Source: Alphaproteobacteria bacterium (lineage in GTDB: Bacteria; Planctomycetota; Phycisphaerae; UBA1845). Taken from it: DNA of 64,000 bases. Shown in pieces: positions 19,057-27,414 of the stretch. The notes below the pieces were generated by a model that made no database searches, had not been told where the DNA came from, and was given only the letters and a program-made list of their open reading frames with translations. The DNA is taken from contig JANQQE010000024.1 in the NCBI GenBank assembly GCA_028285105.1, positions 494,230 through 558,229 on the forward strand, written 5' to 3'. The position numbers and the translations under genes are program-made. Numbering within the stretch: position 1 is the first letter of the stretch; each line of letters opens with the position of its first letter.

Positions 19057-22000
19057 GTGGGCATGCAAGAAGCATTATCGAACACGTTTAAGAAGATATT
19101 CGGTTCGCGCAACGATCGCTTTCTCAAAAAACTGTCACGATTTGCGGACAGCGTCGAAGCGATGGAACCGCAGGTGCTGGAATTGTCCGACGAAGCGCTC
19201 AAAGCCAAAACGGCGGAGTTTAAGGAGCGCCTGGCAAACGGCGAAAACAAAGAAGCCGTCATGCCCGAAATCTTTGCGGTCATTCGCGAAGCCTCACGCC
19301 GGGCAAAGAACCACCGCCATTTCCATTGCCAACTCATCGGCGGTCGTGTGCTTTATGAAGGCAACGTCGCGGAAATGCGCACGGGCGAAGGAAAGACCAT
19401 CGTCTGTCACCTCGCGGCATACATGCGCATCTGCGAAGGCATGAAGGTCCACATCGTCACGGTCAACGATTACCTTGTCGAACGCGATGCCGAATTTGCC
19501 CGGCCCATCTTCGAAATGCTCGGCGTCTCTGTCGGGTTTATTCAATCGCAGATCGATCCCGGCGGTCAACAGGGCGTTCGCCAGCAAGCCTATGGATGCG
19601 ACATCACCTACGGTACGAACAGCGAATTCGGATTCGACTACCTGCGCGACAACATGAAGATGAACCTGCGGGCGCAGGTGCAGGGGCCGCTCGATTACGT
19701 CATCATCGACGAGGTGGATTCGATCCTCATCGACGAGGCCCGCACACCCCTCATCATCTCTGGTCCCGCACACGACGACGTCAGCAAATACAAGTGGGCT
19801 GACAACATCGCCCGCGTCCTCGTTCGCGCTCAGGAACAAATTACCCGCGAGACGGCAGAACGGATCAAGGGCTGGGGCGACAATCCACCGGAAGAGTACA
19901 AGCTCAATCCGAAATTCGAGGATGCAATGGGTCGCTTCAAGATCGATCCGCGCATGCTCACCGAAGAAGAATCCGAAGCACTTGGTCATAAGATTCTGTA
20001 CGTCGCGCAGCTCGAGCGCAAGAACGTCGGACTCACCCACGACGGTGTGCAAGCCGCCCAGGACGAAGCCCAGATCGGTAGCTTCTACGTCGGGGCCAAC
20101 ATGGATCGGCCGCACATCATCGAGCAATCGCTTCGCGCCCACGTCATCTACGAACGCGACAAAGACTACGTCGTACAAGATCGCGAAGTCATCATCGTCG
20201 ACGAGTTTACCGGTCGATTGATGGTCGGTCGTCAATGGTCGGACGGACTCCACCAAGCCGTCGAAGCCAAGGAAAACGTCCCCGTCAAGGAAGAGACGCA
20301 GACCATGGCCACCATCACCATTCAGAATTTCTTCAAACTTTACACGACCCGGGCAGGCATGACCGGAACCGCACTGACCGAAGCCGACGAGTTCATGAAG
20401 ATTTACAAACTCGACGTCGTCAGCATCCCGACGAACCGCCCGATCAATCGCCTCGACCACAACGACAAAATGTTTCGCCATGTGGGCGAGAAATACAAAT
20501 CGATCGTCGAAGAGATTCACGACGTCCATACCAAAGGCCGGCCCGCAGATCCCTTTGTGCTGGCTGACGTTTTCAAAGCGCTCAAACCGATCAAGCAAGA
20601 ACTCGGCGAAGACACGTCGCGCATCGATGAGGCGATGAATCAGTTCAACAATGCGGAATACGGCGACAAAAAAGTTATTCAATTCATGGCCGAAGTGTAC
20701 GACGAAGCGATGGGCGACCTGGCCACCGGACGGCCCGTACTCGTCGGAACCACCAGCGTTGAAAACTCCGAGAAGATTTCCCGGTTGCTCGATCAGACTT
20801 ATGGCACCGAACACGAAGTTCTAAACGCCAAGAACCACTCCCGCGAAGCCGACATTGTCGCGAAAGCGGGCCACCGTACGGTTCCCTCACGCGGTGCAGA
20901 AAAGAACCCGCAGGGTAACGTGACCATCGCCACCAACATGGCTGGTCGCGGTACCGACATCAAACTCGAACTCAACGTCGTCTACCCCAAGTGCAAAGTC
21001 CCGGAAACTGGCAGCACGGTCGACGGCACAGACAGTCCGCTTTACCCAGCGGGAACAACCAAGTGCTGCATCAGTTGCGACGAATACGACCCTGCGACGA
21101 ATTGCGCCCATTGCTATAAACCGAAACTCGACCCGCGCTTCCCCGAGATTGGTCGAAAGGTCTGCTCGCTGAATTCGCCGTGCGGTCTGCACATTGTCGG
21201 TACCGAACGTCACGAATCGCGACGTATCGACAACCAGCTTCGCGGACGGGCTGGCCGTCAGGGTGACCCCGGTTCCAGTCGCTTTTTCTTGTCGCTCGAC
21301 GACGTACTGCTCAAGCACTTCATGCCCGACTGGATGATCAAGATGATGGAGCGCTTCGGATTCACCGAAGGCACCAGCCTCGAAGACAAACGCCTCAGCA
21401 AGGGCATCGAACGGGCTCAGAAAAAGGTCGAGGAAATCAACTTCGGTCGTCGCAAAAGTCTCATCGAATGGGACGAACCGATGGACTATCAGCGCAAGCT
21501 TTTCTACAAAGCGCGCCAGGATGTCCTTGAAGGCATCGACATTCGCGAGACCGTCCTGCGCGTGCTGCGCGATTCAGTCGAAGCAAACGTCGAACGTTTT
21601 GCCTCTGCCGAGTACCCCGTCAAGTGCGTCAGCGAATGGTGTCGGTCCACCCTCGACATTCCGATCGAACCCGACCGCATTCGAGGTGACGATCTCGAAG
21701 AGATTCAGGAGTCCATTCGCAACCGTGCGATCAGTGAGTCGCGCGAGCAGATTCAAACGTCGCTGGGCGAATACATCATCGAAGACGCCCCGCCAGCAGA
21801 GTGGGACGTGCGCGGGTTGGCAGATTGGGCGCAGCGGACATTCAAGGTCAAAACCACGCAAAACCAACTGCGCAAGATGGACCCTGAAGACATTTCCGAT
21901 TTGCTGACCGAGTCGGCGCAGAAGTATTTTGAGTCGGTCGATCTCGAAGGTATCGCCCCATATCTGGAAGATTCGTATCCAAGGCGGATGCTGGCTGAGT

Positions 22001-22992
22001 GGTGTCGTTCGACGTTCGGTATTGAGCTTTCCAGCGACGAACTCAAAGACAAAGCCGCCGGCGAAATGGTCGATGCGATCATGGATCGCATTGTCGAAAC
22101 CTATGAAGAACGCGAAGTGACCTATCCGGTCGAAATCGCGATGGAACGCAGCGGTATCGGTGTCGAAGGTGCGGACAGTGCGTATGCGGCACAAGCAATT
22201 GCCAACTGGTCAAACGCGAAGTTCCAACTTAACCGCACGGAGTCCGACTTTCAGGGCAAATCGCCGAAGGCAATCTATGACGACTTGGTCGCGGTCAACA
22301 AGGAGTTTTTGACCAACGGAAAACTCGGAGCCCAGATCGACGAAGCGATTGCCGGTAAGACAGAAGAAGAAGTGATCGAATGGGCCAAGCAGCGCTTCGG
22401 ACCCGGCTGGCATGAAGAGCGATTCAATACCGGCGAAGGCGAACTGCGCGAGCGGCTTATCGAGCAGGGGCAGGAGATGCTCCGCTACGAATTATCGCGC
22501 ACCGAGCAGGTGGTACTGCTGCGCATTCACGATCAGTGCTGGAAGGATCACCTGTTGGAGATGGACCATCTAAAAACCGCGATCATGCAGCGGCCCATGG
22601 GCGGTGACCAAACGCACCCTCAATCGCAGTACGCCATCGAAGGTCGCGAGTACTTCGACGAAATGTGGTCGCGCATTCGCGAGCGCGTGGTCGATGTGAT
22701 CTTAAAGGTCAAGATGGGTGGCGGCCCGCAGCAGCCTCCCGGTGCCCCACCGGCAATGTCCACGACGAGTCCGGGACCGACAGCCCCGACGCCGCAGTTC
22801 CAGACAACGCACGCCGACGCAACCAACGCTGCATTCGCCGGCGCAGACGCCGATCAGAAAGCCGCAATGAAAGCCCAAGGCAGCGACGGAAAAGCCGAAA
22901 CCATCCGCCGCGAACAACCCAAGGTGGGAAGAAACGATCCATGCCCCTGCGGCAGCGGCAAAAAATACAAGCAATGCCACGGCCGCAAGTAG
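19057..22992 (+). CDS. secA: Preprotein translocase ATPase SecA, expanded (1311 aa)
   Basis: [111 protein letters not shown]-terminal [21 protein letters not shown] zinc motif. Confidence 0.98.
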
Positions 22993-24152: not shown

Positions 24153-25280
24153 CTAGTGGCGGGGTAGCAATTCGACGAGTTGCTGCACTTCGTCTTCGGT
24201 GGTGTAGAAATGCGGCGACGAGCGCAACCGCCCGCTGCGATGGGCGACGACCAATCGGTGCTCGTTTTGCAGGTGTTTTTGAATCTTGCTCAGATTTTGA
24301 AAATCCGACGTGAACGCGATGATCCCACTGGTTTCGCCGCGTCCTCGGGGGCTCACTATGTGATAACCCTTGGACTGTGCGCCCTCCGCGATGATGTGCG
24401 TCAAGTGCGACAAGCGCGACGCAATCGCTTCGATACCGATTTCCGAAAGCAGTTCCAGCGCAGCCCCTAACGCATAGATACCCATCAGATTGTACGAACC
24501 GCTGTCGTAACGCTTCGCCGAATCCTGAAATTCAAACTTGGCGTGATCGAAGTCGAGCGGGTTCTTCATCGACAACCATCCCACGCACGACGGTTTTAGG
24601 AAGCCCTGCACTTCTTTGCGAACATAGAAAATCCCCAGACCTTCCGGCCCGCACATCCACTTGTGAGCGTCAGCCGCCAGAAAGTCGATCTTCATCGAAC
24701 GGACATCAATCGGAACCGCCCCGACGGCTTGGATTGCATCGACGCAAAGCAGCACGCCTTTCGATTGGCAATACTCACCCAAAGCCGCAAGGTCCACGCG
24801 AAACCCGCTGGCATACTGCACGGCGGAAATCGCCACCAAGCGCGTGCGACTGTTGATGGCCGACAGGATGCTATCGATCGGAATCGCCCCGTCTTCTTCC
24901 AGCACCATCTGCACTTCGACGCCGCGACTTCGCAGGGCCTGCCAGCAGAACACATTCGAAGGAAACTCGACGTTGGTCGTGACGATGTTGTCGCCCGTCT
25001 GCCAGTTGATGCCATTGGCGACGAAGTTCAAACCTTCGCTGGTGTTCTTGATGAAGCAGATTTCGTCCGGGTTGGCGTTGATAAACTTTGCGGCGAGGCG
25101 GCGGACCTCTTCTGCATGCTTGAAGAACCCGCCTTCCAAATACGCCGAGTCGCGGGTCTGCTCCAGAAAGCGCTGCGCAGCCGCCACCGAACGTCTGCAC
25201 ATCGGTGCGACGGCTGCGTGGTTTTGAAAATTGTAATTCCGCGTGATCGGAAACTCTTCGCGGATGGCTTCCCAATCCAT
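24153..25280 (-). CDS. Aminotransferase class V (cysteine desulfurase/isopenicillin epimerase-like)
   Basis: MDWEAIREEFPITRNYNFQNHAAVAPM; CVDAIQAVGAVPIDVRSMKIDFLAADAHKWMCGPEGLGIFYVRK. Confidence 0.92.
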   Translation of the reverse strand: MDWEAIREEFPITRNYNFQNHAAVAPMCRRSVAAAQRFLEQTRDSAYLEGGFFKHAEEVRRLAAKFINANPDEICFIKNTSEGLNFVANGINWQTGDNIVTTNVEFPSNVFCWQALRSRGVEVQMVLEEDGAIPIDSILSAINSRTRLVAISAVQYASGFRVDLAALGEYCQSKGVLLCVDAIQAVGAVPIDVRSMKIDFLAADAHKWMCGPEGLGIFYVRKEVQGFLKPSCVGWLSMKNPLDFDHAKFEFQDSAKRYDSGSYNLMGIYALGAALELLSEIGIEAIASRLSHLTHIIAEGAQSKGYHIVSPRGRGETSGIIAFTSDFQNLSKIQKHLQNEHRLVVAHRSGRLRSSPHFYTTEDEVQQLVELLPRH

Positions 25281-25547
25281 GTTTATCGAATCCCCCAGAT
25301 TCGGAAGTATACCATTGGCCAATGCGGCGCGGCGGGTCGGTTCACGTCCGTGAACTTGGGCGGTTGAAGCGATTCAACCCCATGCCAGCGCCTCAACGGC
25401 TGATCTCAACGCCTCGCCATTAGACTTTATCGGTCGCCAAGTGGTCTTTCCACCGGTAGTCGGCTAGAACACCCGAATCGCTTGATCGTAATCGATTGGC
25501 CACCTGCGACGATTGGGGCTATTGACTCTTGTAGCCACTAAACGACG

Positions 25548-27239
25548 ATGTGCGCGATGAAGCACAAAACCGAGTACAACACGAAAATCTTAGCGCAGCT
25601 GATCCCGGTGATCTACACGGATGAGTATTATCTAGCCGTCGCCAAACCGCCCCGCATCGACCTTGAATCCACCGCATGGCGACGCGGACCTCGCTTTATC
25701 GATTTGGTGGATGCCTCTGCCAGCAAAAAATCGAAAGCTGCGAAAAACGATTCAGACGATACCTTAAGGCCGCTCATTCTCCCGGAGCGCTATGCCACCG
25801 GGGTCGCCCTGTTCGCCCGAACCGAAGACGCTCAACGCCGCTTCGCAGGGATGGCGCGAACCGGAAAGCTTCGCTTCGGCCATGTCGCAGTGGCCAACGG
25901 CAAACCGCCAAGAACACGCATCGCCCTCAAACCGAATCGGTCGGCGACCAAAACGAAAGCAGCCAAACCGCTTCAGCAGGCCGCTAAGATCGAGATACTC
26001 GATTCGACGAAGGACCGGCATGTCGCACGATGCAATACTGCGGCGGCTTCCTTCGAACAACTTCGCAAGGCGTTTCGACTTAGCGGGCTTTCCATCGAAG
26101 GCGATCAGTTCATCTCGCCCAAGAAAGCTGAAAAGCCCAAGCAGATGCAACCGCGCCCCCTTGTACACTTGGAACAATTGACATTTCCGCATCCATTCGA
26201 AAAAAACCGCGAAATCAACATGCGGGCAGCCATACCGGGACCGTTCCTGGAAGTGGTGCGCACCGGAAAACTTCGCAATGTGCATTTGTATTCGGCGCTA
26301 TCGATTCGGTTGTCGGTGCTTGTTGAGAAAGACACCGATTGCCTGCGGTTGTTCTGCGGAAAGTTTGAAGGCGTCAGCGGGCTCATCGTCGATCAGTACA
26401 AAGACGTTCTTGAAATGGAAGTCCAGCAGGGCAAGTTTCAAGGCGATGATTCGGAAATTGGCGAGATCGCCGATTGGTACACAACCCACGTCAAAGCCAA
26501 AACGGTCTACGTCAAACGAACCGCCCGCACCGGTTCAACCAAGAAATACCCGATCGAACTGCTTCGTGGCAAAGATGCCGGCGAAGTCACGGTGCAATCC
26601 AAGGGAACCAAGTTCATCGTCACCCCAGGGCAGGGTTTATCAAGCGGACTGTTTCTCGATCACCGCGAAAACAGAGCCTACATCGCCAAACTCGCGCAAA
26701 ACCAATCGCTGCTCAATCTGTTCTGCTATACATGCGGTTTCAGCGTCGCTGCCGCACGCGAAGGCGCGAAGACGACCAACGTGGACCTTTCGGTATCGAG
26801 TCTGGAATGGGGCAAGCGCAACTTTGGGATCAATGGCCTCCCACTCGACGACCACATGTTCATCAAGAGCGACGCCTTCGATTATTTCAAACGGGCTGAG
26901 CGTCAGAAAAAAAGCTTCGACGTCATCGTCATCGACCCGCCGAGTTTTGCGCGGACGAAGAAACCCAAGCGTACGTTCGAGGTCAAAAAGAATATGATCG
27001 ACCTGATCGTCGGGGCGATGCCGCTTTTGAAGGGAGGCGGCCACATGTTGCTGGCGACCAACCATCGGCAGCTACCGCTCGCGTGGCTGATCGAACAGGT
27101 GGACGATGCCGTCGATCGAGACGCGATGAAGAACAAGCGCGGACCGCGTTCATTTCAAATCGTTGCAAAACCCAAGCTACCCATCGACTTCGTCGCCGAC
27201 CGGGCCTACCAAAAAACCATCGTCGTCCGCTTCGATTAG
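25548..27239 (+). CDS. Fusion: degenerate RluA-like pseudouridine synthase domain plus RlmI-like class I SAM-dependent rRNA methyltransferase
   Basis: N-term IPVIYTDEYYLAVAKPPRIDLES / LPERYATGVALFARTEDAQRRFAGMARTGKLRFGHVAVANG resembles RluA; C-term GLFLDHRENRAYIAKLAQNQSLLNLFCYTCGFSVAAAREGAKTTNVDLS...FDVIVIDPPSFAR is RlmI/YccW-type. Confidence 0.85.
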   Translation: MCAMKHKTEYNTKILAQLIPVIYTDEYYLAVAKPPRIDLESTAWRRGPRFIDLVDASASKKSKAAKNDSDDTLRPLILPERYATGVALFARTEDAQRRFAGMARTGKLRFGHVAVANGKPPRTRIALKPNRSATKTKAAKPLQQAAKIEILDSTKDRHVARCNTAAASFEQLRKAFRLSGLSIEGDQFISPKKAEKPKQMQPRPLVHLEQLTFPHPFEKNREINMRAAIPGPFLEVVRTGKLRNVHLYSALSIRLSVLVEKDTDCLRLFCGKFEGVSGLIVDQYKDVLEMEVQQGKFQGDDSEIGEIADWYTTHVKAKTVYVKRTARTGSTKKYPIELLRGKDAGEVTVQSKGTKFIVTPGQGLSSGLFLDHRENRAYIAKLAQNQSLLNLFCYTCGFSVAAAREGAKTTNVDLSVSSLEWGKRNFGINGLPLDDHMFIKSDAFDYFKRAERQKKSFDVIVIDPPSFARTKKPKRTFEVKKNMIDLIVGAMPLLKGGGHMLLATNHRQLPLAWLIEQVDDAVDRDAMKNKRGPRSFQIVAKPKLPIDFVADRAYQKTIVVRFD

Positions 27240-27262: not shown

Positions 27263-27414
27263 GTCATTCCCGCGCAAGCGGGAATCCAGACGCATGCGTC
27301 ACCCTTGCGGTAGAAGCGTTACCCACCGTACGAAATCCGTTGCAACCACTTGCGATGAAAAGAACAGGGAAGCCTTCTATTACGATTCTGGATTCCCGCT
27401 TGCGCGGGAATGAC
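27263..27414. repeat. Pair of inverted REP-like palindromic repeats
   Basis: GTCATTCCCGCGCAAGCGGGAATCCAGA (27263-27290) and its exact reverse complement TCTGGATTCCCGCTTGCGCGGGAATGAC (27387-27414). Confidence 0.88.

Follow-up and report, generated by a model that had tools for sequence, protein, structure and literature searches.

The gene described here encodes a fusion of an RluA-family pseudouridine synthase (PSUS)-like domain with a methyltransferase of the RlmI/RlmK/RlmQ superfamily, and the fusion is spread over about 20 genera of a single family of uncultured Phycisphaerae. Sequence comparison and structural modelling point to the PSUS domain being a pseudoenzyme throughout this clade, given its fold, its lost catalytic residues and the purifying selection acting on it, and catalytic inactivity is predicted. 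The clade-wide fusion of a pseudoenzyme to a methyltransferase is real and is assembled from known kinds of parts. The inactivated domain probably serves as an rRNA-binding or assembly module of a 23S methyltransferase, most likely one of the N7-guanine type.

The fused gene and its neighbours

The window, i.e. the whole stretch of DNA that was analysed, comprises 64,000 nt (GCA_028285105.1, contig JANQQE010000024.1, positions 494,230-558,229, forward strand). The open reading frame of the fused gene (Table 1) corresponds to 563 aa, whilst the true start is probably the ATG of codon 4 (Met4), since the homologues begin there. It is a solitary gene, with a class V aminotransferase gene diverging from it on one side and a GNAT acetyltransferase gene converging on it from the other. 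Within the genus the aminotransferase occupies the same divergent place (88-96% identity), and elsewhere in the family it flanks another seven fusion loci (60-64% identity). The standalone methyltransferase loci that were searched, some with short flanks, showed no such neighbour. As judged from gene order, the aminotransferase-fusion pair is syntenic across the window's family, with no known functional link between the two.

Table 1. Features of the fused gene and its conserved neighbour, in window positions.
Feature	Position	Strand	Basis or remark
Fused gene	25548..27239	+	563 codons + stop; probable start ATG 25557
RluA-family PSUS-like domain, residues ~18-235, predicted to be catalytically degenerate	25599..26252	+	profile, AlphaFold2/Foldseek, alignment
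Former catalytic motif HRLDRxTSG, here ILPERYATG, residues 77-85	25776..25802	+	alignment
Codon at the catalytic-Asp column, GAG, Glu80	25785-25787	+	alignment
Former motif II active-site Tyr, here His112	25881..25883	+	alignment
Former motif III GRTHQxR, here ASFEQLR, residues 167-173; Gln171 and Arg173 remain	26046..26066	+	alignment
Methyltransferase half, residues 241-563, RlmI/RlmK/RlmQ superfamily, RlmK/RlmQ-like, PF10672	26268..27236	+	family, structure and tree comparisons
Methyltransferase motif IV DPPSF, residues 463-467	26934..26948	+	alignment
Methyltransferase motif VI T504-N505; the Asn column is Cys in RlmI and Asn in RlmK and Bacillota enzymes	27057..27062	+	alignment
Class V aminotransferase, divergent gene, syntenic with the fusion across the family	24153..25322	-	annotation, synteny

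A palindromic element, ATTCCCGC-N4-GCGGGAAT, occurs twice without mismatch just 3' of the fusion gene (27266-27285 and 27392-27411; 0.06 expected by chance), the longer flanks of one copy being an inverted version of those of the other; the two copies look like a REP-type repeat pair. Also in the window, SecA (19057-22992, + strand) is longer than usual at 1311 aa and has a Cys-rich insertion, with SecA domains recognised.

The N-terminal domain has a pseudouridine synthase fold

A Pfam scan of the window protein alone detected no PSUS domain and matched only methyltransferase families, in the C-terminal half, and other searches with the single protein gave weak matches, to TIGR00005 (residues 9-127, E = 0.038) and, using phmmer against structures, to E. 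coli RluA (2i82, E = 0.0041). Since Pfam saw no PSUS domain in the single protein, an N-terminal profile was built from 20 full-length homologues, all from the window's taxonomic family. When compared with solved structures this profile matched RluC best (1xpi, 1.7e-29), and also RluA (3.1e-24), RluD (7.7e-17) and RPUSD4 (1.3e-16), whilst PF00849 and TIGR00005 recognised 14 and 19 of the 20 N-terminal domains, respectively. AlphaFold2 models of the full protein and of the PSUS domain alone had pLDDT values of 83.9 and 79.6, and with these models Foldseek returned RluA, RluC, RluD and RPUSD4 at a probability of 1.00. By profile and predicted structure, residues ~18-235 thus have an RluA-family PSUS fold. 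The original prediction had read an RluA layout in the first ~200 aa, and the stretches it quoted occur in the protein and can be aligned with RluA-family motifs; the comparison with RluA and RluD that it proposed recovered the fold in this region.

Catalytic residues have been lost across the family

The 29 fused domains of the window's family were compared at the catalytic positions with 44 other RluA-family domains, i.e. E. coli RluA, RluC, RluD and TruC, 31 standalone relatives from the same order (including L031, discussed below) and nine fused domains from Verrucomicrobiota and Myxococcota. The catalytic Asp is present in 44/44 of the latter set and is missing from 27 of the 29 family fusions, in which the column holds Ser (11), Glu (9), Gly (3), Ala (2), Asp (2), Pro (1) or Asn (1). 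Both of the fusions that keep Asp, L007 (ERVDRFASG) and L127 (MGLDAHVSG), are without motif III, the GRTHQ of which is kept in none of the 29, its final Arg (of GRTHQxR) being Arg in 26 and Lys in three. At the motif II Tyr column there are 19 Tyr, six Phe, two Val and two His, the last in the window protein and its genus-mate, and the Lys of KPxG and the Gly of TSG are kept in all 29. Viewed as an enzyme, the window domain departs from the active family at the catalytic Asp, the motif II Tyr and motif III alike (Glu80, His112 and ASFEQLR). The original prediction had suspected Glu in place of Asp and had proposed to align orthologues at this position in case an intact HRLD would expose an alignment error; none was found within the family, and on these alignments a slip is ruled out as the cause of the missing Asp. 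When mapped onto the tree, the presence or absence of Asp requires at least three changes and the residue at the column eleven.

About half of the 29 fusions share a further conserved pattern, NRL(S/A/G)R(F/Y)(E/D)SG, which may make RNA contacts or form a domain interface. In L009, L012, L014, L016, L017, L020, L118, L124, L128 and L135, HRLDRxTSG is replaced by (N/S)RLSR(Y/F)ESG, with Ser in place of the catalytic Asp and Glu in place of Thr.

An acidic residue, either at the Asp column or three residues later at the Thr column, persists in 26/29 family fusions, which is not explained by loss alone. This would be expected if the domain were still an active synthase with a substituted or relocated acid (Glu at the Asp column, or Glu/Asp three residues on, as in NRLSRYESG), and the aromatic residue that most members keep in motif II (Tyr or Phe) and the basic residue that ends motif III (Arg or Lys in every member) also speak for such activity. 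We nevertheless consider it very unlikely. Asp-to-Glu mutants of TruA are inactive, the motif II position has changed to His or Val in four proteins including that of the window, and GRTHQ is gone throughout. RluC D144A is likewise catalytically inactive (PMC11194073). The unusual Glu catalysis that the original prediction offered as an option was set aside as unlikely, given that the same column holds Ser, Gly, Ala, Pro or Asn in relatives and that motif III has been lost as well.

Selection on the two halves

Pairwise dN/dS values were calculated for five members of the window's genus, with dS near saturation for most pairs, and were 0.075-0.29 for the PSUS domain and 0.060-0.156 for the methyltransferase. 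For the least saturated pair (L003/L004; dS 0.38 and 0.35) they were 0.075 and 0.060, respectively. On the stem branch of the genus the PSUS domain had accumulated 1.56 changes per site against 0.63 for the methyltransferase, and no internal stops were seen in the fusion reading frames across about 20 genera. These values place the PSUS domain under purifying selection, evolving faster than the methyltransferase yet not drifting freely, and the idea of a degenerate domain that lost its catalytic motif but was conserved as a domain is borne out.

The faster evolution of the PSUS domain would also fit a decaying remnant of a bifunctional enzyme, with no function of its own beyond keeping the methyltransferase soluble or folded, as would the occurrence of the same methyltransferase without a PSUS domain in sister families and of catalytically intact fusions in other groups. 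However, the dN/dS lies well under 1 and near the methyltransferase value, the reading frames are free of stops and a new conserved motif, NRLSRYESG, has arisen, all of which speaks against decay; we regard such a remnant as unlikely.

The methyltransferase half

From its sequence the C-terminal half (residues ~241-563) is a class I methyltransferase, presumably acting on rRNA, with intact SAM and DPPSF motifs. It scores below the curated cut-off of every named NCBIfam subfamily; the best match is the RlmK part of RlmKL at 165.6 bits, against a cut-off of 466 for a model that covers the whole RlmKL fusion. The best structure and sequence matches are 3vse and 2b78/3ldf (SMU.776). Motif VI has Asn in 32/33 fused family members and 16/16 standalone relatives, as in RlmK and the Bacillota enzymes, whereas RlmI and its clade have Cys (SCS).

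In a methyltransferase tree of 108 rows, including E. coli RlmI and RlmK, both the RlmI clade and the RlmK clade (100/100) are separate from the fusion-family methyltransferases. The Bacillota homologues in this tree form the nearest outside clade, not firmly joined (86/82), and this clade is putatively RlmQ, as is 3vse. RlmQ is a paralogue of RlmI. In S. aureus RlmQ makes m7G2601, equivalent to m7G2574 in E. coli numbering and located in helix 90 (PMC12149560; PMC11651297), and the B. subtilis RlmQ is ywbD (PMC12805891). Since the fusion-family methyltransferase lies outside the RlmI clade, has Asn at motif VI and resembles RlmK and RlmQ, N7-guanine methylation appears a likelier chemistry than m5C.

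The original prediction had described this half as a full RlmI/YccW-type enzyme. That it is an RlmI-type m5C1962 methyltransferase, with a PSUS domain in place of PUA, draws on its membership of the same superfamily, on significant matches to the E. coli RlmI model NF011707 (88 bits, against a 712 cut-off) and the RlmI structure 3c0k (E = 1.6e-22), and on the window's genome, in which the fusion itself is the one PF10672 protein. The assignment is rejected by the tree and by the missing motif VI Cys, and the protein scores better against RlmK than against RlmI. The separate RlmI clade moreover takes in a second, PUA-sized methyltransferase of the same family's genomes, L184 (G006) and L186 (G165), with G006 carrying a fusion (L009) besides L184, and we give an RlmI identity scarcely any credence. 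As the methyltransferase is not RlmI-type, the m5C mapping proposed earlier would seek the wrong mark. The claim that the PSUS domain replaces the usual PUA domain holds as far as position is concerned, the PSUS-like domain lying where RlmI has its N-terminal PUA, but the nearest relatives are standalone and have neither PUA nor PSUS.

Distribution and origin of the fusion

A survey of 248 genomes of the class placed the fusion in the window's family alone, where 21/22 genomes gave a strong match; the PSUS part is visible in 20 of these 21, and in the other (G012) the contig begins inside the gene. The homologue collection covered 23 family genomes, two of which (G005 and G014) gave no match, so that either the protein is dispensable or the two assemblies have gaps. 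In sister families f4, f5 and f8 the same methyltransferase occurs on its own, mostly with a length of about 340-390 aa, and other families of the class have RlmKL-sized or RlmI-sized proteins instead. A scan of the phylum outside the class for the degenerate domain returned only ordinary RluA proteins (best 127 bits, versus 254 for the window protein), with the motifs intact in 9/9 loci read.

Catalytically intact RluA-methyltransferase fusions are present in Verrucomicrobiota, including Akkermansia and Limisphaera (L049, L055, L084, L088, L089 and L094), and in Myxococcota (L050, L070 and L112), and judging from their motifs they are apparently truly bifunctional. A literature search of partial coverage found no description of RluA-methyltransferase fusions. 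The methyltransferase tree keeps the window's family apart from these fusions, but a forced grouping was not rejected (p-AU 0.232), and in the PSUS tree the branch that has every fused domain to one side of it is supported at only 80/27. Either an ancestral bifunctional enzyme died in this family and the domain was lost in the sister families, or the fusions arose separately.

The window's genome has a single recognisable RluA-family protein (PF00849), the RluD-type L031, with an intact motif. With one PF00849 protein in a 4.8 Mb genome, the organism may make few RluA-type pseudouridines.

Proposed function

In the reading we favour, the methyltransferase half would methylate 23S rRNA, most likely at N7 of a guanine as RlmK and RlmQ do, whilst the PSUS domain has most likely kept the ability to dock on an rRNA element. 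Docking is proposed because the domain keeps its fold, KPxG, the catalytic-loop SG and the motif III Arg, and it would involve the cleft that the domain retains together with this basic residue. Once docked it would hold the methyltransferase in place or assist the rRNA to fold locally, instead of isomerising a uridine. The original prediction of an rRNA-targeting module built from an inactivated enzyme thus stands as regards the lost motif and the conserved domain, with rRNA binding probable; rRNA as the substrate, the N7-guanine chemistry and the targeting role of the dead domain are all inferred. By analogy, a role without catalysis gains support from RlmKL and RlmB, which aid 50S assembly without their catalysis (PMC11194073), and from mt-LAF3, which remains functional when its catalysis is lost (PMC11469412). 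In E. coli, RluC(D144A) failed to rescue assembly (PMC11194073), and a dead PSUS domain is therefore not automatically useful.

A narrower version, which we consider improbable, is that the dead RluC-like domain acts as an rRNA address label, docking in 23S helix 90 close to the site it once modified and handing guanine 2574 to the methyltransferase. RluC makes pseudouridine 2580, in the same helix, and the closeness of this site to the RlmQ site at 2574 suggests a specific test but is no evidence. If this were true, one modification enzyme, once inactivated, would have come to supply the specificity of another.

Bacterial rRNA-modification enzymes are increasingly viewed as assembly factors in which the chemistry is sometimes dispensable (PMC11194073), and here evolution itself may have split the chemistry from the other role, leaving a family-wide pseudoenzyme beside an apparently active methyltransferase. 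The intact fusions built in the same way in Verrucomicrobiota and Myxococcota provide a comparison set for PSUS roles beyond chemistry and make the question directly testable. As a caution for annotation, such fusions may be named RlmI or RluA, neither activity being supported.

Comparison with known systems

The N-terminal domain shares its fold and the order of conserved elements with the RluC/RluA family (PF00849, TIGR00005), RluC 1xpi being the best profile match, but in the window's family it is not standalone and lacks the catalytic Asp in 27/29 members and GRTHQ in all. The trypanosome mitoribosome assembly factor mt-LAF3 is similar in being a PSUS orthologue for which catalysis is dispensable (PMC11469412), and differs as a separate eukaryotic mitochondrial protein without a methyltransferase fusion.

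With RlmI/YccW (m5C1962) the methyltransferase half has the PF10672 superfamily in common, whereas it lacks the RlmI Cys motif and a PUA domain and belongs to a separate clade. RlmQ (m7G2574, Gram-positives) is a putative relative: the uncharacterised structures 3vse and 2b78 give the best structure and sequence matches, and Bacillota homologues form the nearest outside clade. The window protein, for its part, has no PUA domain. The RlmK half of RlmKL (m7G2069) is the best NCBIfam match and shares the motif VI Asn, and RlmKL likewise joins an rRNA methyltransferase to an N-terminal partner other than PUA; this partner is, however, another methyltransferase (RlmL), and the RlmK clade excludes the window enzyme with full support. 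The Verrucomicrobiota and Myxococcota fusions (e.g. Akkermansia L049 and Sandaracinaceae L050) have the same domain order, but unlike the window's family their PSUS domain keeps (H/Q)RLDxxTSG, the Tyr and GRTHQxR in 9/9.
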